IMG/VR virus record: IMGVR_UViG_3300046690_000191
Coordinates: 1 to 27,714 of that record
Length of the DNA: 27,714 bases
DNA from: a virus
Direction: 5' to 3' (one strand)
How positions within the stretch are numbered: the first letter of the stretch is position 1; each line of letters begins with the position of its first letter. Shown here one piece after another: positions 7,800-23,362 of the stretch. Under the pieces are notes generated by a model. It saw nothing but the letters and a program-made list of their open reading frames with translations, was not told the origin of the DNA and did no database searches. A program made the translations under genes and the position numbers.

Positions 7800-9911
7800 A
7801 TGGCATTCGGCGGCCTTCCGGCGCGATCGCAGAGCAATCCGGGCGATCAGCTCCCGAGGCGCAACATTCTCTCGGGCGTCGGCGTGCTCGGCGGGCGGCA
7901 ATTCGGCGGCGATACCATGGGGCGCCGGGCGGCGCAGAATAATCCCGGCTTCAAGTCGCAGACCGGGACGGTGGGCAACTGGGGCACCGAGGCGCCCGAC
8001 GAATACGACTTCTCGGGCGACGAGGACGGCTATTTTCCGGTCACGCGACTGCGGCAACAATACACCGACTATCTGGCAACGAAGGTGCTGGAATATGAGG
8101 AGCAGAAAGTCTCGCGCCACTATTACCACGGCGCGCACTGGACGGCCGAGGAAATCCGCATCCTACGGCAGCGCAAGCAGCCGATCATCACATTCAACCG
8201 GATCAACCGAAAGGTTGACGGCATCACAGCGCTTGTGCAGCGACTTCGCCAAGACCCGAAGGCTTTTCCCCGATCGCCTAAGAATGCCGGCGGCGCCGAG
8301 CTCGCAACGCAATGCATCCGCGCCGCGCTCGACGGGATGGACTTCAAATACCTCGACTTCGAATGCACCAAGCAGGCCGCCATCGACGGCATCGGCGGGA
8401 TCGAGCTCAAGCTGATCGAAGGCGACCATGGCGATCCAGATATTGGTGGTGATTTCATCTTCGGAGATGACTTCTTCTACGACCCGCGTTCGTATAAGCC
8501 GGATTTCAGCGATGCGCGCTATATGGGCATCGCGAAATGGCTTGATGTGGAAGCTGCGATTGAGCTTTTCCCTGATAAAGAGGATGAGCTGCGGACCCTT
8601 ATGGTGGATACCGGCTTCGATCTCACGACGCATTCCGATCGTGAGTTCAAATGGGTCTATGTCAACGAGCAGAGACTTCGACTGATCGAGCACTGGTACA
8701 AGCACAAAGGTAAATGGTACTGGGCGTTCTATTGCAGCTTCATTTTGCTGGATCAGGGCGTGTCGCCGTTCCTCGATGAGCGCAACAGGCCGATGAACCG
8801 CTACGTGATGTTCTCGGCCGCGGTCGACCACGATGGAGATCGCTATGGTTTTGTTCGCAACCTCAAAGGCCCGCAAGACGAAGTCAACCAACGACGCTCC
8901 AAAGCGCTCTTTATCTCGAATGTTACGCGCACTTTCGCGCAGAAAGGCTCGGTTGACGATGTGGAAACAGCTCGCCGAGAAAGCTCGCGCCCCGACGGAT
9001 GGGTAGAATACAACAAGGGCTTCGAGAAGCCGATGCCGGACGACCGGCAGGCCGATCTGGCGGCGCAACTGCAACTCATGCAGACAGCGACGAGCGAAAT
9101 CGATGGATTCGCCAACATACGACCCGACGCCATCGGAGCAGATGACTCTACGTTTCATTCAGGGGTGGCGATTAATTACCTTCAGAAGGCCGGCATCGCT
9201 GAACTCGGTTCGTTTATATTGGCGTATCGCGCGTGGAAACTGCGTGTTTATCGTACCGTGTGGAATATCGTCAAACGCACCTGGAACCAGGAGCGGTTCA
9301 TCCGCGTGGGCACCGACGACACCCAGAAACTGATTCAGATCAATGGTTTCGGCAAGGACCAGTTCGGCCGTCCCGGTTTCATCAATGCGATCGGCGATAT
9401 CGAGGTCGAGATCGTGCTGGACGAGGGGCCGGACAACGCCAACCTGATGCAGGATGCCTACGAGGTGCTGGCACAACAGCCTCCGGGGACGATACCGCCG
9501 CAAGTCCTGATCCAGATGATGCCGATCGCGGACAGCATCAAGAAGCAGCTCGTGCAGATGATGAGCCAGCAAGACCCGATGGCGCAGCAGGCCAAGCAAT
9601 TGACCAACCAGCGGCTCGGCGCCGAGGTGGACGAGAAGAAGGCCGGCACGATCCATCGCTATGCGCAGGCCGCCAAGGCGGCGAGCGAGGCGCACACCAA
9701 CGTCACCCAGCTCGTGCATCAAGCCATGGGCATCACGCAGGCGGGCGTGCTAGATGCCAACACCCCGGATCAGCCTGGGCAGGGTGGCCAGCAGCCGCCA
9801 TCTGGACTGCCGCCGCCCGTGCAGCAACCACAGCCCATGCGCGTCCAGCCGTTCGCCCGGCCCGCAGCGCCTCGGCGTTTCGCACCAGCCCCGATGCGGC
9901 GTCCAGCTTAA
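7800..9911 (+). CDS. P22-like portal protein
   Basis: Encodes 703 residues, the usual size of P22-type portals (about 725). Signature segments: RQRKQPIITFNRINRKVDGI (about 125-145), GDDFFYDPRSYKPDFSDARY (about 222-242), and DRYGFVRNLKGPQDEVNQ (about 344-362). The C-terminal 150 residues contain a Gln-rich helix (QQDPMAQQAKQL) resembling the barrel, then a Pro/Gln/Gly-rich tail. The portal forms the dodecameric ring at one vertex, docks TerL and later the tail. AGAGG six bases upstream supports the ATG. Confidence 0.9.
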   Translation: MAFGGLPARSQSNPGDQLPRRNILSGVGVLGGRQFGGDTMGRRAAQNNPGFKSQTGTVGNWGTEAPDEYDFSGDEDGYFPVTRLRQQYTDYLATKVLEYEEQKVSRHYYHGAHWTAEEIRILRQRKQPIITFNRINRKVDGITALVQRLRQDPKAFPRSPKNAGGAELATQCIRAALDGMDFKYLDFECTKQAAIDGIGGIELKLIEGDHGDPDIGGDFIFGDDFFYDPRSYKPDFSDARYMGIAKWLDVEAAIELFPDKEDELRTLMVDTGFDLTTHSDREFKWVYVNEQRLRLIEHWYKHKGKWYWAFYCSFILLDQGVSPFLDERNRPMNRYVMFSAAVDHDGDRYGFVRNLKGPQDEVNQRRSKALFISNVTRTFAQKGSVDDVETARRESSRPDGWVEYNKGFEKPMPDDRQADLAAQLQLMQTATSEIDGFANIRPDAIGADDSTFHSGVAINYLQKAGIAELGSFILAYRAWKLRVYRTVWNIVKRTWNQERFIRVGTDDTQKLIQINGFGKDQFGRPGFINAIGDIEVEIVLDEGPDNANLMQDAYEVLAQQPPGTIPPQVLIQMMPIADSIKKQLVQMMSQQDPMAQQAKQLTNQRLGAEVDEKKAGTIHRYAQAAKAASEAHTNVTQLVHQAMGITQAGVLDANTPDQPGQGGQQPPSGLPPPVQQPQPMRVQPFARPAAPRRFAPAPMRRPA

Positions 9912-9922
9912 GAGGTTCCCCC

Positions 9923-10339
9923 ATGCTCAGATTGCTTCTCGCCGCGCTGGCAACAGCGTGGTGTTCGTGGACTAGTCCACCCGCGTTTGCGCAGTCGGCG
10001 CCGCTCAAGTACGACAGCCTCGCCTCCACCAACTCGACCCTGGTCGTTTCCGGCGCCGTGCAGCTTCGCGTGCTCGGCCTGTTCAATACGACGGCCGCGA
10101 TCTATTGGCTTAAGCTGTACGATCTCGCCGTGGCGCCAACCTGCGGCACCTCGGTCGTGAAATGGAAGGTGCCGATCCCGTTCGGGGCAGCGAATGCCGG
10201 CGGCGGCGCCGTCATGCCGATTTCCGATGGCTTGGCATTCGCCAACGGGCTGGGCTTCTGCCTCACCGGACTGCAGGCCGACAGCGACACCACGGTGGCG
10301 GCGACCGGCCTGGCGATCAATTTCGGCATCAAGCAGTGA
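9923..10339 (+). CDS. secreted decoration-like phage protein
   Basis: Encodes 138 residues. The first 24 form a Sec signal with hydrophobic core LLLAALATAW and a cleavage-like AFA-QS. The mature part (LASTNSTLVVSGAVQLRVLG, FNTTAAIYWLKLYDLAVAPT, GFCLTGLQADSDTTVAATG) follows the pattern of small beta-sandwich phage proteins found near head genes, as I recall usually without a signal. AGAGG seven bases upstream supports the ATG; the frame is open far upstream inside the portal gene, but that part is not the protein. First gene of the exported cassette. Cys pair positions suggest a disulphide, consistent with export. Confidence 0.7.
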   Translation: MLRLLLAALATAWCSWTSPPAFAQSAPLKYDSLASTNSTLVVSGAVQLRVLGLFNTTAAIYWLKLYDLAVAPTCGTSVVKWKVPIPFGAANAGGGAVMPISDGLAFANGLGFCLTGLQADSDTTVAATGLAINFGIKQ

Positions 10340-10364
10340 TGGTGCTTCAGGATGAGGGCTCACC

Positions 10365-10814
10365 ATGAGGGGGCTCATAACGGCGCTTCTCATCTGCCTA
10401 GCCTCATCGGCGCCGGCGCAACTGCTGACCACGGGATACGGCTCCGGGAGCTTTGCCAGCGGCGTGTTCATTGCGCTGTCCAACACCTCGATCCTGGAAA
10501 TGTCCTCGAACGGCACCACGCTCGGCACCGCGAGCATCGCGGGCGGCAGCACCACGGGCGTTCCGGTCTGGGCCCTGACCGACCCTTTGGGGGTTTTCCA
10601 GATCAACTCGGGCACAGGTATCGTGACCGTGCTCAGTAACGTGAACCTGGTGTTCGCGACCCACCCGATCATCCCGATCACCATCTCGGTGACCGGAACG
10701 GTGCCGACGGTTCCTTCGCGGATCGTCAACATCAACGTGTTGCCGATCGGCTGTACTGGCGCGCTCGATCTTTCCAAAGGTTGCCCACAGGCCATGCTTG
10801 GAGGTGTGCCATGA
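10365..10814 (+). CDS. secreted protein with cadherin-like domain
   Basis: Encodes 149 residues with a short Sec signal (MRGLITALLICLASSAPAQ). Residues 60-125 (WALTDPLGVFQINSGTGIVT, then TISVTG and IVNINVL) fit the cadherin-like beta-sandwich pattern 'dp.g.F.i...tG.i.v...y.i.v.v'. Such domains in phages usually mediate binding. Two cysteines lie near the C-terminus. A GAGGG six bases before ATG supports the start, and its stop overlaps the next start as ATGA. Role unknown; probably part of the exported cassette. Confidence 0.65.
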   Translation: MRGLITALLICLASSAPAQLLTTGYGSGSFASGVFIALSNTSILEMSSNGTTLGTASIAGGSTTGVPVWALTDPLGVFQINSGTGIVTVLSNVNLVFATHPIIPITISVTGTVPTVPSRIVNINVLPIGCTGALDLSKGCPQAMLGGVP

Positions 10815-11836
10815 ACAAATGGCATCTGCGTTTTCTTCGCCTGGCCTATTTTGGCCTTGCCGCCATCCTGCCGATCTACGCCCTGGCCGACTACAACGCC
10901 ACGCAGGGTGCCGGCACGATCTTCCGCGCTTTCGATTCCACCCATGGCGGCACCTCTCTTTGCGCCGCCGCCAACACCCAGTGTCAAGGTATTGTCAATA
11001 CTAACTCTGCAGGTGCCGAAGTTGGTATCGCTGCTGCCCCTCTTCGAATCGACCCCACTGGCACCACCACCCAGCCCGTCTCCGGCACCGTCGCCGCCAC
11101 CCAATCCGGCGCTTGGACCGTCAACCCGACGACCGCGGCGAACTGGGGCATCGGCACCAGCACCTACAACAGCGCGCTTGTGGCCAACGGACAGTTGATG
11201 CTCGGACAGTTCCTGACCTCGCCCGGCACCCTGACCACCACCAACATGGCCCCGCTCCAGGTTGACTCGACTGGCAACCTCCGCGTCAACGTTGTCGCGG
11301 GCGGCGCAGGCGGCGGCGCCGTCACTGTGGCAAACGGCGCCGATGTCGTCGAAGGCAACAACACCGACGCCGCCAGTTGCAGCAGTGGCACTTCCGTTGT
11401 TGCTTGCTTGCGACAGATCAACACCAATATTGCCGCTCCGATCCCCGCTGGCACTGCTCATATTGGCACCGTCGGTGTGGCACCATACGCAGACGGCGCC
11501 GTGCCGATCACAGCTACTGCGACCGGCACGACTGCGGCCACCACCGCCACGCTCGCGGCCTCGGCCGGCGGGCTGAAGACCTACATCTGCGGGTTCTCGA
11601 TCCGTGCCAATGCCACAGCAGCGGTGACCAACAATGCGACGGTGACCGGCGTTATCACCGCGACCATGAATTTCACGCAATGGACCGCGCCACTTGCCAG
11701 TGGCCTGGGCGTGACGGAAATGGTGTTCACGCCCTGCATTCCATCGAGTGCGACGAATACGGCGATCGCCGTGGTGTCGGGCGCGCCAGGGACCGGCGGC
11801 GTCATATCCGTCTCGGCCTGGGGATACCAACTCTGA
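10811..11836 (+). CDS. secreted Thr/Ala/Gly-rich phage protein
   Basis: Encodes 341 residues. The N-terminus (MNKWHLRFLRLAYFGLAAIL, then PIYALA-D) is a signal peptide. Residues 80-115 hold a PVSGTVAATQSGAWTV beta-repeat element, and the last 130 (ITATATGTTAATTATLAASA ... FTQWTAPLASGLGVTEMVFT ... VVSGAPGTGGVISVSAWGY) form a domain I associate with rhizobial phage structural regions. GGAGG six bases upstream of ATG 10811 fixes the start over an upstream alternative at 10781. It ends TGATG into the next gene. Likely beta-rich adhesin or decoration; function not established. Confidence 0.68.
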   Translation: MNKWHLRFLRLAYFGLAAILPIYALADYNATQGAGTIFRAFDSTHGGTSLCAAANTQCQGIVNTNSAGAEVGIAAAPLRIDPTGTTTQPVSGTVAATQSGAWTVNPTTAANWGIGTSTYNSALVANGQLMLGQFLTSPGTLTTTNMAPLQVDSTGNLRVNVVAGGAGGGAVTVANGADVVEGNNTDAASCSSGTSVVACLRQINTNIAAPIPAGTAHIGTVGVAPYADGAVPITATATGTTAATTATLAASAGGLKTYICGFSIRANATAAVTNNATVTGVITATMNFTQWTAPLASGLGVTEMVFTPCIPSSATNTAIAVVSGAPGTGGVISVSAWGYQL

Positions 11837-12753
11837 TGTGGCACCGTCTTACAGTCTGGGTGCTTCTGCTTGTTGGAATTGTGTGCCTGGCACAGCAAAG
11901 GCCGTCTAGCGCCTACTGGCAAACTCGGGACTCAGCGTACAACAATCCACCAACCAGCGGTCCCGCCCGTATGTGCACCGACGGCGCCCACGCTGCCGCG
12001 TTCAACGCCCGCACCTCGGGCCAGAACGCCGCCCACCTCGATGCCAACTGCAACTTCATCAACGGCCTCGATAGCGACTCCCTCTATGCCTCTGCCGATC
12101 TCATCTATCTCCTCGCCACCGACACCGCGCCCAACGCACGCCTCAACATCACCTCCGCCAGCTTCACCATCACCGAGGTCAACTCCCCGGTCTTCACTAC
12201 CGACTCGGGCTACACCGTTGGCGGCACCTCCACCGCCAACCTCGACACCAACTACAACATGGCCACCAACGGCGTTACCTTCCTGCAAAACAGCGCCTCT
12301 GCTTTCATCTGGACATTGACCAACCTCAACAACACCATCGATTACAAATATGCAGTAGGTACGCACCAGGCCGTTCCATTGCTGGCCATCTATCCGATGT
12401 TTTCCTCTGCTACAACTTTTCTGCGGATTAACTCCACCACCAATGCCTCGAATACAGGCATGGGTCACTTCTTCGGAGTCGAACGCGACCTATCCACCGG
12501 CTCGACTGCTGAGGATGGCTACCAGGACGGCGTTAATTGTTGCTCCGGCGCGAGCACCTCTTTGGCCCCATTTAGCGGCAACATCATCATCCTGAACTCC
12601 GATGCTGGTGGCGTGAACTCATCCCCCTTCGGCGGCAACGTCGCCTTCTTCTGGGCTGGCGGAACCATCGGCGCCACCCAAGAGGTCAAGCTCTGCCACC
12701 GAGTCAACCTCTACCTCACCACCATCGCAGGCGCTGGCGCAGGAGTTTGCTGA
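11836..12753 (+). CDS. exported LamG-like phage protein
   Basis: Encodes 305 residues. A hydrophobic leader (MWHRLTVWVLLLVGIVCLAQ) starts it, with no certain cleavage site. The rest (LIYLLATDTAPNARLNITSA, VFTTDSGYTVGGTSTANLDT, FLRINSTTNASNTGMGHFFG, FSGNIIILNSDAGGVNSSPF) matches the beta-sandwich 'LamG-like' pattern of many phage tail-region proteins, which may bind carbohydrate. The start is set by a TGATG overlap with the preceding gene, and its stop repeats the same coupling with the spike gene. Cysteines near the end may form disulphides. Role inferred, not shown. Confidence 0.65.
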   Translation: MWHRLTVWVLLLVGIVCLAQQRPSSAYWQTRDSAYNNPPTSGPARMCTDGAHAAAFNARTSGQNAAHLDANCNFINGLDSDSLYASADLIYLLATDTAPNARLNITSASFTITEVNSPVFTTDSGYTVGGTSTANLDTNYNMATNGVTFLQNSASAFIWTLTNLNNTIDYKYAVGTHQAVPLLAIYPMFSSATTFLRINSTTNASNTGMGHFFGVERDLSTGSTAEDGYQDGVNCCSGASTSLAPFSGNIIILNSDAGGVNSSPFGGNVAFFWAGGTIGATQEVKLCHRVNLYLTTIAGAGAGVC

Positions 12754-15700
12754 TGCGGATCGCGGCCCTTCTCCTCTCCATGCTCCTTGCCGCCCCCGCC
12801 TATGCCTGGCCTCGCCACGGCGCCTCCACTGGCGGTGGCACCATCGCCCCCGGCCTCGTCCTCGGCACTTACGGCTCCACCACCGCTTCGGGCTGGACTA
12901 CCATTGGTCCGAGCGATAACACGATGCCCTCCTTCGCCACCTGCCCTGGTGGCACCAACATCGTATACATCTCCGACTCGCTCGGCGAGGACAACCGTGA
13001 CGGCTCAACCCCAACCTTCGTCGACGACAACAACACCGCGCAGTTCGTTCTAAGCTCTGCCATCGTCCCGGTGGTGAACGACGTTTACACAGAGATGTCC
13101 ACCGGGTTTACATTCACCGTCGCGACGACCGCAAGATCAAGTTTCGGCACAGTTTCTAATGTATTTTTGCAGACGAAGAACCGCACCGGCACTCCTCCTA
13201 CCACCGGTACGCTGAATCGAACCTCTGGCACCGGCCCTGCCGGCCCTCTGACCTACACTGCGAGGACACTCGGCATTCACGGCCCGATCAAGACCATCAT
13301 CAAGGCCATCTCAAGCGGCATTGGCTCTCCCAATACAACAACCGGCCCAGGCCCCTACGATCCCGACAACACCGGCGGTCCCTTTGTCCCCAATGGCGAC
13401 GGCACCGGCCTCGGCACCATCGGCAACTGGCGAACAGCCGGCAGCGTCGGTGCCAGCTTCGGCCTTCGCGATCACTGCCCAGACTGGGCCCTTCTTCGGA
13501 TGGGCGACACCTTCGTCGGTCAGGCATTTGAGACGAATTGGAATGTTGCTGCGTCCGATAACTTCCAATGGAACGGATTCTCTGAACAAGAGCCGATGGT
13601 CATCTCGGCCTATGACGAGGCCGTCCTTGTGACAACCCCAGACTTAGGTTCAGGATTGCGGGCACGGCCGATTGTTCAGGTCCCTTCTTCAAACCCCGCC
13701 TACGCAGGCGGCCGACCAGCCGGAACCCAGCACGCCTTTTATGCCCGCCCTGGAATGAACTTGACGGCTGGCAAAGGCAACTACGTCGCCGTCATGGGCA
13801 TAGACTTCTACTCCGCGCAGCGAAACCCTAGCGACGGGGCGTATGTCGGCGCAGGAAACATAAGCAACGACAACAACATCGGCATTGACCATCGCGGACA
13901 ACAAACCGGCTCCCTGATCGAGGACACCCACGCTAGATGGTTCACCAACGGTTTTACATACGACAACGCCAGTGGTTCATCCATCACGCGCAACAACTTC
14001 GACATAACCATCCGTCGCAGTCAGGTTGACCACTGCTACGACTCCGCCGGGAACAAGCACAGCGGCATAGTCGTCGACAGCGTCGGGGCCATAGGCGGCG
14101 CCATGTCTCCAGGGTTTTCCTTTGAGGAAAATGTAATGGATCTGTGCGGCTGGGATAACGTCGGCTTCACGTCCGGCAGCCAGTACAGCCGGGACGCCTA
14201 TTTGCAATGGGATGCTGTCTTCGGCAATCGTCGAGGAAACACCGCCACCAGGAGTGCATCAGAGGGCATTCAGTTCCGCTCCGGCGGTGTCATCGACAAC
14301 AACTTCTTCTACAACGGCAACTACGGTCTTGATGTCGGCCACCAGGAAGGCGACCCGACGATCACCAGCAGCACGACCGTCACCAACAACGTAGTCATGT
14401 CTCCCGTGATCACCCACGGCGTTGCCGTATTAGGGTTCAACTTCTACAACGCAAACAACATAACGGCCACGGGCAACATCGTAGCAAATGTTGATAGCGC
14501 CATAGGTGACGCCACTGCGAATTGGGTTGCAACGGATGGCAACAGAGGCGCTCCCGCCTACTTGAACCTGACGAATGCAGGAACCGGTGGAGCCCCGGGA
14601 AATTACGCTATTGGTGCATGGAACGCGGGAGCTGAAGGGTGCAATGGTTCGCCTCCCAACTTCACCGGAGGAGCAGTCACCGTCATGGGCATCTATTCTA
14701 TGCTCATTGGCGCTGGTGGAACAATCACCCCTGATCCCCTCACCGGTGGTTTGTCTTACATGGAGCCGAGTCCTGGCGGGGCATCTCTGCCCGGGGACGT
14801 TCTGACCCCTGTAGCCGGCTACCCGAGCATCAACACCGCTGGCCTGTCGCTTACCGCTGTCGGATCAGGCGGCACGCTGGGTGACTACGGCACCGGCTTC
14901 GGCCATTGCCCGCGCGATCCGGCCAGTACGACACCCGGAGACACCCAGTACGGCGTAGCTCTGACCAATTTCAGCGGGAGCATGTCCGGGTCAGGCGCAG
15001 CCGCGACTTTCACTTCAAACAGTTTCAGTGGAATTACGCGAGCCTTCAATGGCGGCACGGGAACCTATCACGCTGTTGGCACGACGACCAACACCAACAC
15101 CATCGACACGACGGCTGGTGTCGGGACAAACAAGATTACTGTCACTGGCGTGACCCCGTCGGCTTATAATAGCACCTGGACGATTGTATCCTTCAACTCA
15201 ACGGCGATAGAATGGGACACTGGCCTCGCGGCTGATCCCGGTCCCGTGACCGTCCCAGGGAAATTAAATGCCTTCGCCATCATTGCGACCGGCAAGAACT
15301 ACGTCGCCGGTGACGTTCTCTCCATCGCCTCGACCGACATCGGAGGGCAAACCGGCGTTCGCATCACGGTCGGTAACGTAGCGCATCTGAGCGGATGGAC
15401 CGTTTCTGTCGCTTCTACGGAGAGTGCCGGCACTCACGGTCTGACCTGGACCAACAACATCGTCTACAACTGGTCCGGTCAAAACCCTCCATTGATCGAC
15501 GACGAGGGCGGCACGCACGACTCTCCTGGCGGCGTCCTCGGCAGCGGAACCGCCAACACCTTCACCGGGAACAGCGTCTGCGTGGGATCGCAGTTCACTG
15601 GAGTGATCACTGGGCCGAACACTCTTACAACAAGCGCCATCGTCAACGGCCCCATCGCCATCGGCCAGAACCTCGCCGGACCTGGGGTCACCGCTAACAC

Positions 15701-15986
15701 TACGATTACTGGGGGCAGCGGTACGAGCTGGACGGTGTCGCCAAATCAAACTGCTCCTAGCGCTACAATGTACGGCTACACCTGCACGCCGACCAAGGTC
15801 TACGCGCATCCCGAGCGCACCGTCCAAACCTACGCCGCCTTCCTCGGCCTCACCGCCACCATCGACGGCTACCTCTACGGCAATGGGACCACCACCGGCG
15901 CGATGAACAACGCGAAGTGGAACTGGAACCCTGCCTACACCGCCAACAACGGCATCAACCCATACATCCGACTTGGATTTCAGTGA
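12753..15986 (+). CDS. beta-helix tail-spike-like protein with signal peptide
   Basis: Encodes 1077 residues. MRIAALLLSMLLAAPAYA-W is an apparently cleavable Sec signal, which is unusual for a spike. Residues 65-90 (IVYISDSLGEDNRDGSTPTF) match the entry strand seen in pectate-lyase-like beta-helix proteins. About 335-590 is the helix itself, with short strands and Asn/Gly turns (SLIEDTHARWFTNGF, SITRNNFDITIRRSQVDHCY, GVIDNNFFYNGNYGLDVGH, NNITATGNIVANV). The C-terminal third contains beta modules common in phage fibres, including GPGVTANTTITGGSGTSWTV (about 978-997). Spikes of this class cleave or bind surface polysaccharide. AGGAG seven bases upstream supports ATG 12753. Catalytic residues cannot be assigned. 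Confidence 0.75.
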   Translation: MRIAALLLSMLLAAPAYAWPRHGASTGGGTIAPGLVLGTYGSTTASGWTTIGPSDNTMPSFATCPGGTNIVYISDSLGEDNRDGSTPTFVDDNNTAQFVLSSAIVPVVNDVYTEMSTGFTFTVATTARSSFGTVSNVFLQTKNRTGTPPTTGTLNRTSGTGPAGPLTYTARTLGIHGPIKTIIKAISSGIGSPNTTTGPGPYDPDNTGGPFVPNGDGTGLGTIGNWRTAGSVGASFGLRDHCPDWALLRMGDTFVGQAFETNWNVAASDNFQWNGFSEQEPMVISAYDEAVLVTTPDLGSGLRARPIVQVPSSNPAYAGGRPAGTQHAFYARPGMNLTAGKGNYVAVMGIDFYSAQRNPSDGAYVGAGNISNDNNIGIDHRGQQTGSLIEDTHARWFTNGFTYDNASGSSITRNNFDITIRRSQVDHCYDSAGNKHSGIVVDSVGAIGGAMSPGFSFEENVMDLCGWDNVGFTSGSQYSRDAYLQWDAVFGNRRGNTATRSASEGIQFRSGGVIDNNFFYNGNYGLDVGHQEGDPTITSSTTVTNNVVMSPVITHGVAVLGFNFYNANNITATGNIVANVDSAIGDATANWVATDGNRGAPAYLNLTNAGTGGAPGNYAIGAWNAGAEGCNGSPPNFTGGAVTVMGIYSMLIGAGGTITPDPLTGGLSYMEPSPGGASLPGDVLTPVAGYPSINTAGLSLTAVGSGGTLGDYGTGFGHCPRDPASTTPGDTQYGVALTNFSGSMSGSGAAATFTSNSFSGITRAFNGGTGTYHAVGTTTNTNTIDTTAGVGTNKITVTGVTPSAYNSTWTIVSFNSTAIEWDTGLAADPGPVTVPGKLNAFAIIATGKNYVAGDVLSIASTDIGGQTGVRITVGNVAHLSGWTVSVASTESAGTHGLTWTNNIVYNWSGQNPPLIDDEGGTHDSPGGVLGSGTANTFTGNSVCVGSQFTGVITGPNTLTTSAIVNGPIAIGQNLAGPGVTANTTITGGSGTSWTVSPNQTAPSATMYGYTCTPTKVYAHPERTVQTYAAFLGLTATIDGYLYGNGTTTGAMNNAKWNWNPAYTANNGINPYIRLGFQ

Positions 15987-16174
15987 CCTACAACGCGCAA
16001 TTCGCCCATATGGCCGCGCTCGACCGCTGGCCGAAGCGATGGCGCGAGCTCGCCTACGAATACGGCTTCAAGATCGTCAAGGAAATGCGCGATCAGCACG
16101 GTGGCTATCACGCCGTCAAGACCGACCTGGAAACATGGCGTGAACGCCGCCAGGACGAACTGTTGAGGAATTAA
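15983..16174 (+). CDS. small hypothetical protein
   Basis: Encodes 63 residues from GTG 15983, which overlaps the spike stop (GTGA). It is helical and charged (LDRWPKRWRELAYEYGFKIV, TWRERRQDELLRN) with no membrane segment. The coupled start and small size are typical of phage operons. ATG 16010 is an alternative start giving 54 residues. Function unknown. Confidence 0.55.
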   Translation: MTYNAQFAHMAALDRWPKRWRELAYEYGFKIVKEMRDQHGGYHAVKTDLETWRERRQDELLRN

Positions 16175-16178
16175 AGCA

Positions 16179-17165
16179 ATGGCACCGAGAACACAGCACC
16201 CGCCGGCGCAGGATGCGGATGACGAAAGCCTCCTGGTCGCCGCCATGGCCAATACCGAGAGCGAGATCTTCACCGAGGCGATGGGCGACGACGAGGACGA
16301 TAACGACGGCGATAACTCGCTCGAACAGATGGAAGACCCGGTCGGCGACGACGAGGAGGACGCCGGCGAGGAGGAGGGTGACGAGGAAGGCCAGGAGGAG
16401 ACCGGTGACGAGGCACCGCAGGAAGGCGCCCGTGAGCCTCCTCCGCAGGAACGCCCGAGTTACCGCCTGCCGCCAGTCGACCCTTCCGCCCAACGCATTG
16501 CCGAGCTCGAAGCCAGGCTGGCACGCATGGAAGCGCCCCGGCAAGAACAGCCGGCGCCGCCCCCGCAGGAACTGCCCGACCCCGTCCTCGACCCGGCCGG
16601 CTTCCGCGAAGGCATGGCGGCGCAGATGCGGGCCGAATATCAGCAGGCCACCAGAACGGCCATTCTGGAGAACAACTTCAAGGCAACCGAGGCGGCCTAT
16701 TCGCGTGAGAACCGAAGGGACGAATTCACGCTGGCAGCAAGCCAGTTAAACGAGCTTTCGTTTCGCGCCAGGACGGACCCGAATGCTGCGGCTACGGTAC
16801 GCGGCATCGTGAATGCACCCGATCCCGGCTACGCGCTGATGCAATGGGCCGAGGATACCCTCGACCTGGAGAACTTCCGCCAGGAGCAGGCGGAACGCAA
16901 CCGCGAGCAGGCAGCACGCCTGCTCGGTGTAGACCCTGCAGATCTTGAAGGCATTGCCCCGCAGCGCCAGGCGCCGCGGCAGGATACCCGGGAGCGCGGC
17001 GAGCAACGCCAAGCGCCCGCACAACGCGGCAGGGGGACTAGTCCCCGGCTTCCCTCATTGAACTCAGCAGGCGGCGTCGGGCGCGAGGGCGGCAATAGCC
17101 GTAACCTCGACCCGCGCGGCTTCGACGGTTCCGAGGAAAGCATCTTCCGAGACGCATTCAACTAG
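16179..17165 (+). CDS. probable head scaffolding protein
   Basis: Encodes 328 residues directly before the coat gene, the usual place for a scaffold. Residues 35-80 are extremely acidic (long Asp/Glu runs), 85-135 Pro/Gln-rich, 150-255 mostly helical, and 260-300 basic (RQAPRQDTRERGEQRQAPAQ), ending GFDGSEESIFRDAFN. Scaffolds share this build: low complexity, acidic N-terminus and a basic coat-binding end. They assemble the prohead and then leave. GAGG upstream supports the ATG. Call rests on position and composition, since scaffolds diverge rapidly. Confidence 0.72.
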   Translation: MAPRTQHPPAQDADDESLLVAAMANTESEIFTEAMGDDEDDNDGDNSLEQMEDPVGDDEEDAGEEEGDEEGQEETGDEAPQEGAREPPPQERPSYRLPPVDPSAQRIAELEARLARMEAPRQEQPAPPPQELPDPVLDPAGFREGMAAQMRAEYQQATRTAILENNFKATEAAYSRENRRDEFTLAASQLNELSFRARTDPNAAATVRGIVNAPDPGYALMQWAEDTLDLENFRQEQAERNREQAARLLGVDPADLEGIAPQRQAPRQDTRERGEQRQAPAQRGRGTSPRLPSLNSAGGVGREGGNSRNLDPRGFDGSEESIFRDAFN

Positions 17166-17246: not shown

Positions 17247-18395
17247 ATGGCCATCACTACCGTACAAGCCCAAAATAAACTCATCGTCTTCCGCAAGGAA
17301 GTCACACGAGAATACATCCGGCAGAACCTGTTTAGCCCGTATGTGGGCACAGAACTCACCGCGATCATCCGCGTCATCAATGACCTGAAAAAAGGCGGCG
17401 AGCAGATCAATATCCCGCTGGTCGCAAGGCTCAAGGCCAACGCGATCTCGACCGGAACGCTCGTCGGCAACGAAGAAAATATCGACAATTTCGGCGATCG
17501 GATGTGGATCGACTGGGCGAGAAACGCCGTCCGCATCCCGAAGTCCGAAGAGCAGAAGTCGAGCATCGACCTATTCGGCCAGGCGCGTCCGCTGCTCGAA
17601 GACTGGGGCAAGGAGCTCCAGCGCAACGAGATCGTGGACACGTTCAACACAATCCCGATCCAGAACACACAGCCCGCCGGTCTCGGCTCTGCCGGCGGCC
17701 AGCGCGTCAACGGCGCGTTTTTCGACGCGGCAACCCCAGCACAACGCAACACATTCACCACCGACAACAACGATCGCATCCTGTTTGGTGGCAGCCAAGG
17801 CAACCTGTCGCCCGGCAACTGGGCAACCTCGGCCGCTAATGTCACGTCCGGCATGACCTTCAGCGCCGCCGCGGCAAATAAGATGAAGCGGCTGGCCAAA
17901 AAAGCCAACCCGAGGATCAGACCCTACAAGCTGAAAAACGGCCGGGAATATTTCGTGGTCTTCGTGGGGTCTAATTGCTTCCGCGACATCCAGCTCGACA
18001 CCACGATCATCAACGCCAATACCCAGGCGCGTCCGCGTGAAGGCGACGGGCTCGACAAGAACCCGCTCTTCCAAGACGGCGACCTGCTCTACAACGGCAT
18101 GATCTTCCGCGAGATCCCGGAATTGGATATCCGACTGCCCACGACCTACACCACCGCTGGCGCCGGCGGTATCCAGATCGCGCCCGTGTTCATGTGCGGA
18201 CAATCCGCCATGGCCTGGGCGTGGGGCAGAATGCCTCGCCCGACGTTCCTCAAAGAGGACGACTACCAGTTCTACCGCGGCGTCGGCGTGGAGATGGCCT
18301 ATGGTCTCAAGACCATAGCCAAGGCGAACCCGGCCGGAAACTACAAGAGCTGGGGCATCTTCTACGGGTATTTCGCCTCGGCGAACGACACATAA
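17247..18395 (+). CDS. major capsid protein, N4 gp56-like
   Basis: Encodes 382 residues. Segments FRKEVTREYIRQNLFSPYVG, GEQINIPLVARL, MWIDWARNAVRIPKSEEQ and the C-terminal GGIQIAPVFMCGQSAMAWAW ... EDDYQFYRGVGVEMAYGLKT ... YFASA match the N4 gp56 coat family (HK97 fold), normally around 400 residues. It forms the icosahedral shell. Its place after the scaffold and its strong match make this one of the best assignments here. The start has GAAGGGG eight bases upstream, within a hairpin. P22-type portals usually pair with a different coat, so this is a mosaic head. Confidence 0.85.
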   Translation: MAITTVQAQNKLIVFRKEVTREYIRQNLFSPYVGTELTAIIRVINDLKKGGEQINIPLVARLKANAISTGTLVGNEENIDNFGDRMWIDWARNAVRIPKSEEQKSSIDLFGQARPLLEDWGKELQRNEIVDTFNTIPIQNTQPAGLGSAGGQRVNGAFFDAATPAQRNTFTTDNNDRILFGGSQGNLSPGNWATSAANVTSGMTFSAAAANKMKRLAKKANPRIRPYKLKNGREYFVVFVGSNCFRDIQLDTTIINANTQARPREGDGLDKNPLFQDGDLLYNGMIFREIPELDIRLPTTYTTAGAGGIQIAPVFMCGQSAMAWAWGRMPRPTFLKEDDYQFYRGVGVEMAYGLKTIAKANPAGNYKSWGIFYGYFASANDT

Positions 18396-18496: not shown

Positions 18497-19087
18497 ATGA
18501 AGAATCTCATCTCGCGGGTGAGCGGCGGATTACTTGCCGGCCTCGCTCTTGCTCTGCTTGTCGTCGGATCTGGGCTCTATGTCGCGGCTCAACCCGTGTT
18601 CTCGCCGCGCATATTCCCGACCCAGCAAGTCCACTACATGCGGTTCCCGGTCAACTTCAATTCCTGCCCACTCCCTGCCGCGGCCGGCAACTGCTCCTAT
18701 AAAGTCGGCGCAGTTCCATACAATTCATGGATCCTGCGCGGCGTCCTCGAGGTATTCACCTCGTTCAACTCCACCACCACCGACACCGTTGCATTGAGCA
18801 CGGCTTCCGGCACGGGTGCATTGCTCGTGGCGGGAACCTCGACGCACGGTGCCGCCGGGGTCACGCAATTGACCATCGTCACGGCGACCGGCCTCGGTGT
18901 GCAATCGACCGGCAACAACATTGCCCAGACCGGGAGCAATGGCGGCTTCGATATCTGGGCAAATCTCGCGTACACGGGCGCCTCGCCCGCAACGGCTGGA
19001 GCCGCCGCCATCGTGCTGGAATACGCCGCTCCCAATGACGGACTATGCGGGCCGGTCGCACTCGGCGCCACCGCTCCCGGATGCTGA
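18497..19087 (+). CDS. decoration-like protein with N-terminal membrane/signal segment
   Basis: Encodes 196 residues. Residues 8-32 form a hydrophobic segment (GGLLAGLALALLVVGSGLYV) with no clear cleavage motif, so a signal anchor is as likely as a signal peptide. The remainder (WILRGVLEVFTSFNSTTTDT, VALSTASGTGALL, GASPATAGAAAIVLEYAAP) fits a small beta-sandwich found in phage head regions, as I recall usually without such a leader. Cys residues occur early and late. GAAAGG seven bases upstream supports the ATG. It follows the coat gene, suggesting decoration, but the leader implies membrane delivery. Confidence 0.62.
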   Translation: MKNLISRVSGGLLAGLALALLVVGSGLYVAAQPVFSPRIFPTQQVHYMRFPVNFNSCPLPAAAGNCSYKVGAVPYNSWILRGVLEVFTSFNSTTTDTVALSTASGTGALLVAGTSTHGAAGVTQLTIVTATGLGVQSTGNNIAQTGSNGGFDIWANLAYTGASPATAGAAAIVLEYAAPNDGLCGPVALGATAPGC

Positions 19088-20114: not shown

Positions 20115-20566
20115 TGGCTCCCTACGCCGGCCAGTACCGCACAGTCAACGACCTGATTGACGAGGCGCTGGCAAAATTGGGCGTGAAATCGGCCGGCCAG
20201 CCTACCGATCCGGAAGACTACAACTACGTGTTTTCAGCCTACGATGCCATCCTGCGCAAACTGGCCGGCCTGGAGATCATCACGCTGTCGAGCTACGACA
20301 CGAGTTCCGTTCCCGGCGCGTGGTTCCTCGATCTCGCCTCCATCATCGCCGGCGAGGTATGTCAGAAGTTCAGCTACACCGGGCAGGACCGCACCGACAT
20401 GATGAATGCGGGGCTCGGCGACGGCGTGACGGTCGAGATCGGCGGCGGCGCCGCCGCCAAGTCGCTCAAGCAGATCACGCGGTTGAAGCCGACCTTAGAA
20501 CCGTTGAAGGCCGATTACTTCATCTGGGCGGCACTTTTTATTGCAGCATCGGGAATGATTTCATGA
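20114..20566 (+). CDS. P22 gp4-like head-closure/tail accessory protein
   Basis: Encodes 150 residues. YRTVNDLIDEALAKLGVKSA ... YNYVFSAYDAILRKLAGLEI ... FLDLASIIAGEVCQKFSYTG fits small helical connectors of the gp4 type that bind beneath the portal. Its place just before the gp10-like gene also matches P22 order. The last 14 residues (IWAALFIAASGMIS) are hydrophobic and unlike the rest; related proteins seem to end near ADYF, so this tail may have been created when the endonuclease gene entered. Its stop overlaps the HNH start (ATGA). Confidence 0.6.
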   Translation: MAPYAGQYRTVNDLIDEALAKLGVKSAGQPTDPEDYNYVFSAYDAILRKLAGLEIITLSSYDTSSVPGAWFLDLASIIAGEVCQKFSYTGQDRTDMMNAGLGDGVTVEIGGGAAAKSLKQITRLKPTLEPLKADYFIWAALFIAASGMIS

Positions 20567-21087
20567 ATCTAACCCATGAGAGGCTTCTACGGGTTCTCTT
20601 CTACGATCCAGAGAGCGGTATTTTCTCGTGGAATACTAAAACAGTCACACGCGGACGCCCCAGTAAGCTTTTCGGTGTGAGAGCCGGAACCATTTCGGGC
20701 GCTGGAAAGACCCGCACAAAATCTTACCGAATGATCGGCGTAGACGGCACAAAATATCAGGAGCACCGATTGGCTTGGTTCTATATGACAGGCGAATGGC
20801 CGGCCTCTCTTGTCGATCACAAAGATCTCGATGGCCTCAATAATAAGTGGCTAAATCTCCGTGAAGCTACGCACAGCACGAATAAGGCAAATCGCGCGGC
20901 GCCTGCAAACAATACAACAGGCTTCAAGGGCGTCAGTTTCAACAAAGCCCAAGGGCTCTATCAGGCGAGTATTTGCCGCCAATACAAGCAGATGCATCTC
21001 GGATTTTTCGATACCGCAGAGCTTGCAGCTGCGGCCTATGAAAAGGCTGCGCGCGAGCTATTCGGTGAGTTTGCACGAGCATCCTGA
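20563..21087 (+). CDS. free-standing HNH-AP2 homing endonuclease (first copy)
   Basis: Encodes 174 residues. HNH part: YQEHRLAWFYMTGEWPASLV, DHKDLDGLNNKWLNLREATH, STNKANR; metal and catalytic residues are the His/Asp of EHR, VDHKD and the Asn of NNKW. AP2-like DNA-binding part: NTTGFKGVSFNKAQGLYQAS ... HLGFFDTAELAAAAYEKAAR, ending LFGEFARAS. HNH endonucleases of this class cut DNA near their own locus and spread by copying. It is A+T-richer than its neighbours, a sign of recent entry. It fits between two genes with ATGA/TGATG overlaps. Confidence 0.88.
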   Translation: MNLTHERLLRVLFYDPESGIFSWNTKTVTRGRPSKLFGVRAGTISGAGKTRTKSYRMIGVDGTKYQEHRLAWFYMTGEWPASLVDHKDLDGLNNKWLNLREATHSTNKANRAAPANNTTGFKGVSFNKAQGLYQASICRQYKQMHLGFFDTAELAAAAYEKAARELFGEFARAS

Positions 21088-22826
21088 TGCCTAACACTCC
21101 CTACATCCCAATTCCATGGCCGTTGAGCTCGTTTCCTGGCTCAAACCTGCATCCCGGCGACAACACGCAGGAATCGGCCGGGAGGATCGTCAATCGATAC
21201 GCAGAAGCCCTGGGCGAGGCGCAGCACCCTACCGGACCATCGGCCCAGGTCTGGCGACGATCGCCTGGGCTGACACGCCACGCCGTCACGTCCCAGACCG
21301 GTTACCGCGGTGGTCTGATCGTCAACAATCTGTCCTATGAGGTGTGGAACAACAACCTATCGACGGTCGACGCCGGCGGCGGCGTGACCTCGCTCGGCAG
21401 CATACCGGGGACGGCTCCTATCAGCATCGCGCGCGATCTGGCCGTCACCGTCGATGTCGTGATCGTTAGTCCGGGAGATGGGGCGTTCACGTCGACCGGT
21501 GGGGCGGCGCCCGTCTCCTACAACGGCGGCGGCGTGCTGCCGCAGCCTAACAGCGTGGCGTTCCAGGATGGCGTCTTTCACTTCACGATCGCGGACGGCC
21601 GGGTGTTCGCCTCCGGGATCAATGCACTGACGCAGAACGCGCTCACGTTCGTCAAACTGCAGTCGAAGTCAGATGTCGTCCTGCTCCGCGGCATTGCCTT
21701 CAACGGCATGATGTACTTTTTCACCACGGGCGGCTGCGAGGTCTGGCAGGACACGGCAGCCCCGACACCAGCCTATCCCTATACAAAATTCATGACGCTG
21801 GCCTATGGGCTGGTGCAGCAGAGCGCAATCGCGGGATGGGAAACCGGTTTCGACGATCTGATCTGGGTGGCGCAGGATTTCAACGTCTATCGCCTGCCGT
21901 ACAACACGCTGCAACCGGGACCGGCGATCTCGCCGCCCGCGCTCAACACGCTGATCGAGTTCGCGGTCAAGGCCGGCGACACGATCAAGGCCGGCGTCCA
22001 TATCTCGGCGGGTCGTAAATTCTGGACGCTCACCTCCTCGACATGGACCTGGCAGTTCAACCTCTCGACGCAGAAGTGGAACGAGCGGCAGAGCCTCAAT
22101 GCCTTGACCGGGCTCTATGGCCCGTGGCGCGGCGTCGGCGGCCACAACGCCTTCGGCAAATGGCTGATGGGAGACACGCAATCAGGAAACCTGCTGTTTA
22201 CCGATAGTCAGAACTTCACCGAGGATGGGGCACCGCTGCGCTCGCGGATCGAGAGCGGGCCAGTGAGCGCATTCCCCGGCCAGACCAGGATCGCGCGCGC
22301 GGATTTCAATTTCGTGTTTGGGGTGGGCGAAAACGTCGCCAACTTCATCACCAACGTGGTCGGGACGGCGGCCTCGCCTTCGCATCTGATCCGGCTGGAG
22401 GTCATCTCGACAGCGGGGATGACAAACAACGATCAGGTCAATGTCGCCGGCGTCCATGGCACGACCGAAGCCAATGGAACGTGGGTGGCAACCATCGTCG
22501 ATCCGACGCACATCGATCTGCAGGGCTCGCTGTGGGCCAATGCCTGGACCTTTGGCGGCACGGTTACCGATGTCACGGCGCCGCATAACATGGTCGCCCC
22601 GGTGTGCGCCATATCGTGCTCGAAGGACGGCGGCATCACCTGGGATTACCCCGCAATCCGCCAGATCGGGACGCAGCAACACGTCAAAGGCGTGCGCGCC
22701 TCGGTGAAATCGCGCGGCATGTCGGGGATACAAGGCGTGCGCTGGCGGGTCGATTGCAGCGATAGTGTCTATGATGGTTTTTTAGGTGGTACTATGAGTA
22801 CAAATCCATTGGAGCCTCCCCCGTAA
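21087..22826 (+). CDS. P22 gp10-like tail hub/DNA stabilisation protein
   Basis: Encodes 579 residues. RIVNRYAEALGE ... VWRRSPGLTRHAV ... YRGGLIVNNLSYEVWNNNLS ... GFDDLIWVAQDFNVYRL ... GWETGF, and the closing CSKDGGITWDYPAIRQIG ... GVRWRVDCSDSVYDGF fit the gp10 family, a beta-propeller hub closing the head and linking the tail. Residues about 417-496 (LIRLEVISTAGMTNNDQVNV, GTTEANGTWVATIVDPTHI) look like an inserted module of the kind often annotated 'E1 FCCH-like' in phage tails, explaining its length above P22 gp10 (472). Flanked by HNH genes on both sides. Confidence 0.78.
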   Translation: MPNTPYIPIPWPLSSFPGSNLHPGDNTQESAGRIVNRYAEALGEAQHPTGPSAQVWRRSPGLTRHAVTSQTGYRGGLIVNNLSYEVWNNNLSTVDAGGGVTSLGSIPGTAPISIARDLAVTVDVVIVSPGDGAFTSTGGAAPVSYNGGGVLPQPNSVAFQDGVFHFTIADGRVFASGINALTQNALTFVKLQSKSDVVLLRGIAFNGMMYFFTTGGCEVWQDTAAPTPAYPYTKFMTLAYGLVQQSAIAGWETGFDDLIWVAQDFNVYRLPYNTLQPGPAISPPALNTLIEFAVKAGDTIKAGVHISAGRKFWTLTSSTWTWQFNLSTQKWNERQSLNALTGLYGPWRGVGGHNAFGKWLMGDTQSGNLLFTDSQNFTEDGAPLRSRIESGPVSAFPGQTRIARADFNFVFGVGENVANFITNVVGTAASPSHLIRLEVISTAGMTNNDQVNVAGVHGTTEANGTWVATIVDPTHIDLQGSLWANAWTFGGTVTDVTAPHNMVAPVCAISCSKDGGITWDYPAIRQIGTQQHVKGVRASVKSRGMSGIQGVRWRVDCSDSVYDGFLGGTMSTNPLEPPP

Positions 22827-23362
22827 TGCCAGTGCCTGCAGCCGAGTTGCCATCACAAGACGCGTTGCTCGCGTGCTTTGATTACGATCCAATTACCGGC
22901 GTTCTGCGCTGGCGTCGTCGTGACCCGATAAAACAAGGAATGAAGATCGCCAACGGCAAATGCGCCGGGAAGGCAGCCGGATACGTGCGCGAAGGCAAAT
23001 ATATTGCCGTCATGCTGGATGATGTCACCTATTACGCACATCGCATCATCTGGAAGATGGTTACCGGAAACGATCCGCCGGATTGGATAGATCACGAGGA
23101 CGGCGACGGAACCAACAATAGATGGCTCAATATGAGAGCGGCTACCCACGCTCAGAATATGTGGAACACTTCTATTTTCAGGAACAACACAAGCGGCTAT
23201 CGCGGCGTTTCGTTCATTAAGTCCCATGGCAAATTTAGAGCAGCAATCGGCATTGGTGGAAAGAAAAAGCATATCGGCTACTTCAATACGGCGGCTGAAG
23301 CGCATCTTGCTGTGGCTGAAGCGATCTTTAAGACCCGCGGCGATTTCGCGAGGGTCGCATGA
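22826..23362 (+). CDS. free-standing HNH-AP2 homing endonuclease (second copy)
   Basis: Encodes 178 residues with the same build as the copy at 20563: FDYDPITGVLRWRRRD, YYAHRIIWKMVTGNDPPDWI, DHEDGDGTNNRWLNMRAATH, then AP2-like NTSGYRGVSFIKSHGKFRAA ... HIGYFNTAAEAHLAVAEAIF, ending RGDFARVA. It differs substantially from the first copy in protein and DNA, so it is an independent arrival rather than a recent duplicate. TAATG and ATGA overlaps join it to its neighbours. Probably a mobile endonuclease that cuts nearby phage DNA. Confidence 0.88.
   Translation: MPVPAAELPSQDALLACFDYDPITGVLRWRRRDPIKQGMKIANGKCAGKAAGYVREGKYIAVMLDDVTYYAHRIIWKMVTGNDPPDWIDHEDGDGTNNRWLNMRAATHAQNMWNTSIFRNNTSGYRGVSFIKSHGKFRAAIGIGGKKKHIGYFNTAAEAHLAVAEAIFKTRGDFARVA

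Follow-up and report, generated by a model that had tools for sequence, protein, structure and literature searches.

Five consecutive genes between the portal and scaffold genes of a phage contig encode proteins with apparent export signals, and the question raised by this locus is why virion-like products should be sent out of the cytoplasm, in which the heads of tailed phages are held to be built wholly. The DNA analyzed (the window) is the IMG/VR contig IMGVR_UViG_3300046690_000191, 27,714 bases in length. The gene order is portal, five tightly packed leader genes, a short ORF (15983-16174), probable scaffold, coat, and a sixth leader gene whose product is P0006. The P22-like portal gene (7800-9911, + strand; PF16510, E 7.7e-90; phrog_156, E 6e-88) forms the left border of the cassette. 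The product of the coat gene (17247-18395, + strand) is matched by PF13252 and by phrog_334, major head protein, and is 35% identical to the major capsid protein of the cyanophage Pam1; the portal and coat identities predicted from PF16510 and PF13252 are firm. The gene at 16179-17165 (+ strand), for which no family match was obtained in Pfam or PHROGs, is probably the scaffold, as judged from the acidity of the product and from a position that is as in Pam1. Two HNH endonuclease genes of the homing type are located in the adaptor/nozzle region (20563-21087 and 22826-23362). A megablast search of the window against isolate phages and tblastn searches with P0005 and P0006 returned no match.

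The five cassette genes, all on the + strand, encode P0001 (9923-10339, 138 aa), P0002 (10365-10814, 149 aa), P0003 (10811-11836, 341 aa), P0004 (11836-12753, 305 aa) and P0005 (12753-15986, 1077 aa). In all five N-termini a hydrophobic core without charges follows a positively charged n-region and leads up to an A-x-A-type site. With the predicted cut marked by a slash, the leaders are MLRLLLAALATAWCSWTSPPAFA/QS for P0001 (about 9923-9991), MRGLITALLICLASSAPA/QLL for P0002 (about 10365-10418), MNKWHLRFLRLAYFGLAAILPIYALA/DYN for P0003 (about 10811-10888), MWHRLTVWVLLLVGIVCLAQQRPSSA/YWQ for P0004 (about 11836-11913) and MRIAALLLSMLLAAPAYA/WPR for P0005 (about 12753-12806). Leaders were called with a home-made Sec rule (n-region, hydrophobic core, A-x-A), not with SignalP; by this rule 7 of the 30 window genes are positive, namely those for P0001-P0005, the gene at 18497-19087 and the gene at 268-1032. 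The first-pass annotation had described five consecutive leader genes at 9923-15986 with correctly placed starts; all five are present there with Sec-type leaders, and each start is set by a Shine-Dalgarno sequence or a stop/start overlap. The pattern is larger than was noted, and the view that the leaders are limited to the portal-scaffold cassette did not hold: a sixth leader gene at 18497-19087, behind the coat gene, had been overlooked and is the most informative of all.

This gene (+ strand, leader about 18497-18589) encodes P0006, a protein of 196 aa and a leader-bearing homologue of capsid cement proteins, which attach to the capsid exterior. It lies directly downstream of the coat gene, and the same placement is found in nearly every related contig. 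The leaderless Rhizobium phage RHph_Y1_10 gp74 could be aligned by hhalign along the full mature portion of P0006 (98.65%, E 5e-16). By hhalign, the leader clade (alignment A4) is joined to the RHph-like group (99.8%, E 2e-28), the RHph-like group to an intermediate group (94.8%), and the intermediate group to Pam1 gp6 (97.1%, 35% identity). When the leader clade and Pam1 gp6 were compared directly, hhalign was negative (2.4%), so that the homology link is transitive only, and a direct PDB sequence search with alignment A1 gave chance matches only. Modelled with AF2, the mature domain (pLDDT 88 with 53 sequences; 64 with 13 sequences) has an Ig-like/jelly-roll beta fold that matches solved cement proteins. 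When the model was compared with 350,542 PDB chains by Foldseek, GP4 8h89 ranked first (E 1.1e-3) and Pam1 7eel second (E 3.6e-3), both with prob 1.00 and with E just above 1e-3. By VIA, Pam1 7eel and KHP30 7dn2 were the top matches with Z 8.7 (7eel, rmsd 3.2 over 128 residues), although a Z near 8 by itself could reflect a common beta arrangement. Since the Foldseek E is only about 1e-3, the cement identification leans jointly on the fold, the gene position and the chain of profile matches; together, the profiles and the model place the mature part of P0006 among the homologues of capsid cement proteins from podophages.

Other assignments around P0006 were considered. The family phrog_20969 (E 3e-5), labelled 'Rz-like spanin', would make P0006 a spanin or lysis protein; this was rejected because the match falls in the cement-like beta domain of 18497-19087 and also catches a leaderless homologue (L145, 1761-2171). 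As the leaderless member is matched as well, the 'Rz-like spanin' label is probably wrong. Neither P0011 (19139-19525) nor the post-coat protein of locus L048 was supported as a P0006 homologue in the profile comparison. Neither the window nor 17 contigs of 39-87 kb, which may be incomplete, contained a second cement copy, and a further, leaderless cement gene that would relieve the exported copy of virion duty was thereby discarded for these sequences.

Loci of relatives were gathered with the coat alignment and yielded 124 distinct post-coat homologues, with a leader in 72 and without one in 52. A search for homologues with and without leaders in related phages had been proposed in the first-pass annotation, and its outcome is that the leader is a clade trait: the coat tree groups all 72 leader forms in a single clade that has 73 members and a local support of 99%. 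The lone leaderless member of this clade, L145, has one cysteine versus two in its nearest relatives and is a natural case of loss; its presence inside the clade indicates that export is not indispensable. A program count on the coat tree gave six changes with earlier labels, for which the hydrophobic core had to reach 2.0. Inspection moved L133 and L152 to the leader forms and L159, L254, L233 and L246, all outside the clade, to the leaderless ones, after which one gain and one loss were counted by eye. In Bradyrhizobium sp. YR681 a coat and cement gene pair of the leader clade is present, probably as part of a prophage (L077, in the same region as L047). Of 392 sampled genomes from the bacterial family to which this strain belongs, 12 besides YR681 contain a homologue, and none of the 11 of these with a callable start has a leader. 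The trait therefore appears to be tied to the phage lineage and not to the host.

The start sites were compared across the same set. In 49 of the 72 leader genes an in-frame ATG, GTG or TTG is present between the leader and the conserved core, which would fit misplaced starts or chance hydrophobic N-termini. However, a Shine-Dalgarno sequence of at least 4 nt is found at 67 of the 72 chosen starts, while an alternative start preceded by such a sequence occurs in a single gene of the 72. This comparison rules out misannotated starts as the source of the leaders. The Sec rule is passed by 67 of the 72 leader-bearing cement homologues and by none of the 52 leaderless ones, which points to a low false-positive rate on like proteins, and the probability left to misplaced starts or chance is negligible.

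In the leaderless homologues, RHph_Y1_10 gp74 among them, a conserved Arg is found at residue 8-13, and in the leader forms it most often lies about 10 residues past the A-x-A site. The spacing is alike in both forms, so cleavage would give back roughly the leaderless N-terminus. The coincidence of the cut site with the start of the leaderless homologues also bears on the idea that the hydrophobic N-termini have no role in export and stay uncleaved, as structural or membrane-attaching parts used during assembly in the cytoplasm. Virion assembly is cytoplasmic, and a few leaders are long or without a perfect A-x-A, both of which fit this idea; it is nevertheless very improbable, given also that 61 of the 72 leader forms combine a basic n-region and an uncharged core with an A-x-A site (the best-matching site was picked, which biases this count upward), and that cytoplasmic virion proteins are without the even-cysteine signature described next.

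In disulfide-bonded periplasmic proteins cysteines are expected to be paired. The leader-bearing cement homologues contain 0 (7 proteins), 2 (16), 4 (32) or 6 (14) cysteines in 69 of 72 cases; the number is odd in three, one of which is clipped by the contig end. The leaderless homologues contain 0 (39) or 1 (13). The counts for the mature parts of P0001 to P0006 are all even (2, 2, 6, 6, 8 and 4). For the other leader proteins, a set of 40 representatives at 40% identity was drawn from the portal-coat leader proteins and the window leader proteins; the cysteine number is even and nonzero in 35 and odd in 2 (p 1e-8), whereas cytoplasmic controls of the leader clade (terminase, portal, coat, adaptor and other virion proteins) comprise 24 even and 38 odd. 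As the leader was gained once, the correlation of leader and cysteines is mainly one event, and the parity result is less affected. The cysteines independently support export. Taken from sequence, the case for export and cleavage of the leader proteins is strong, and the case for disulfide bonds in them is likewise strong.

Where both flanking genes are visible, at least one leader gene is present between portal and coat in 37 of 49 leader-clade loci versus 1 of 38 leaderless-clade loci, counts in which some automatic leader-gene calls look like chance ORFs. The product at the single leaderless-clade locus (L185, 2066-2842) is of the PEP-CTERM type, with a signal peptide and a canonical-looking PEP-CTERM tail. 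In relatives the portal-coat leader genes can be sorted into roughly two dozen clusters without relation to one another, and the C-terminal domain of P0003, the commonest leader-bearing domain at this site, is the core of the largest; relatives of P0003 in other phage contigs bear leaders too. So many unrelated clusters at one site suggest that leaders are gained at the same spot by a variety of domains, many of which look beta-rich. Relatives of the P0001-type domain without a leader are found in Caulobacter phages S2B and KSC, in S2B within a larger protein. The sole PHROGs match among P0001-P0005 is a weak one of P0004 to phrog_26223, a family of unknown function.

Cassettes in relatives range from none to five leader genes with mutually unrelated domains, and the turnover of their content is quick. 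Such a pattern, together with the host-like PEP-CTERM protein of one leaderless-clade phage at the same site, might be expected if the genes for P0001-P0005 were lysogenic-conversion cargo (morons) that came to lie between portal and scaffold by chance, with the cement protein alone in the virion. This explanation is considered unlikely: the five genes overlap or lie close together, no promoter match was obtained inside the cassette, the cassette sits within the structural-gene block, and the P0001-type domain of S2B is part of a larger protein and leaderless.

One more exported protein is encoded in the window apart from the cassette (268-1032, + strand). It has a signal peptide and a PEP/VPLPA-CTERM-like tail whose C-terminal matches are sub-threshold. 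Its relatives were found in at least 80 IMG/VR contigs, some of them long, at 46-100% identity, and it represents a widespread phage-carried surface-protein gene.

The presence of such a surface protein in the same window is in keeping with the main rival explanation, by which the leader proteins are exported but stay off the virion and act in the periplasm or at the cell surface, where they might exclude superinfecting phages, mask receptors or bind or degrade matrix, the cement homologue having been recruited from the capsid. Leaders and paired cysteines indicate export, not virion binding, and the quick turnover of cassette content would also fit. This explanation is rated as rather unlikely, because the gene for the cement homologue follows directly on that for the coat in almost all relatives, and the protein is the sole copy found and retains its N-terminal capsid-facing motif. 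The segment R..F.TQQTHY.R near the N-terminus is conserved above the rest of the protein in leader and leaderless forms alike, and in PMC9698820 the N-terminal loop of the Pam1 cement protein is described as touching the capsid E-loop. The extra conservation of this segment and the single cement gene per contig suggest that P0006-type proteins still decorate the capsid, and they argue against a general cell-surface coating role for the cement protein. No enzymatic or adhesin family was recognised in P0001-P0005 with Pfam, PHROGs and NCBIfam; the LamG, cadherin and beta-helix labels first given to these proteins and the proposed exported depolymerase were accordingly without a profile match in these databases.

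The reading preferred here is that podophages of the leader clade export part of their virion and that the cement protein and its accessories bind the capsids at lysis; its chances are rated as about even. The cement protein and one to five accessory beta-rich proteins from the portal-scaffold interval would leave the cytoplasm via Sec, lose their leaders to signal peptidase I and acquire their disulfides in the periplasm. Meanwhile, portal, scaffold and coat would assemble and package DNA in the cytoplasm. Lysis would open the inner membrane and mix the periplasmic and cytoplasmic pools, upon which the matured cement protein, with the accessories, would bind the expanded capsid. Removal of the leader would free a short N-terminal arm that grips the capsid, so that unprocessed protein could not decorate early. 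Binding of the cement protein at lysis is proposed with moderate confidence, as is a virion role of the five cassette proteins. Put more boldly, and with a probability a little short of even, a lineage of dsDNA tailed phages may finish its icosahedral capsid outside the cytoplasm, with oxidative maturation in the periplasm and decoration only once lysis joins the compartments. The first-pass annotation had rightly seen the products as virion-like and their export as paradoxical, and decoration outside the cytoplasm, which it listed as one option, is now the best-supported one. To our knowledge, neither capsid decoration after lysis in nature nor split-compartment virion assembly is known in any tailed phage. 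Signal peptides on capsid cement or decoration proteins were not found in the literature, within which subscription papers were incompletely covered.

Lambda gpD, T4 Hoc and Soc and phage L Dec are small accessory proteins on the surface of the mature capsid, as is proposed here for the cement protein of the leader clade; unlike the latter, they have no signal peptides and are made and added in the cytoplasm. Pam1 gp6 (PDB 7EEL), which is resolved as a cement protein in the structure of the Pam1 capsid, resembles P0006 in that its gene lies directly behind that of a homologous coat protein, its beta-sandwich is among the closest structural matches and it is joined by the profile chain; it differs in having no leader and one cysteine, and when compared directly by profile with the leader clade it gives no significant match. 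Ralstonia phage GP4 gp1 (8H89) and the cement proteins of KHP30 and KHP40 (7DN2, 7DOU) have an Ig-like trimeric cement fold and are top structural matches to P0006. For GP4 gp1, in contrast to P0006, the available part of the description mentions no leader, and residues 2-156 of 157 are traced in it. RHph_Y1_10 gp74 (MN988487.1) and the leaderless relatives in prophages of the YR681 family are homologous over the mature domain and have the same gene position as P0006, but have no leader and 0 or 1 cysteine, and are annotated as hypothetical proteins. The cement protein itself is of a known kind; what appears to be new is a cement protein with an export signal and, on the bolder reading, the assembly route.

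The leaders and paired cysteines on the cement protein and its neighbours suggest that one lineage of short-tailed soil phages produces part of its coat outside the cytoplasm and attaches it as the cell lyses. Genes of this kind are easily mistaken in annotation for host-like exported or lysis proteins, as the 'Rz-like spanin' family in PHROGs illustrates. The leaderless relatives in the same bacterial family offer a natural comparison with and without the leader, which makes the question directly testable. If the proposed route is true, it would explain how phages could bear disulfide-stabilised surface proteins, and lysis itself would be an assembly step in a whole clade with a signal peptide and paired cysteines on its cement protein.
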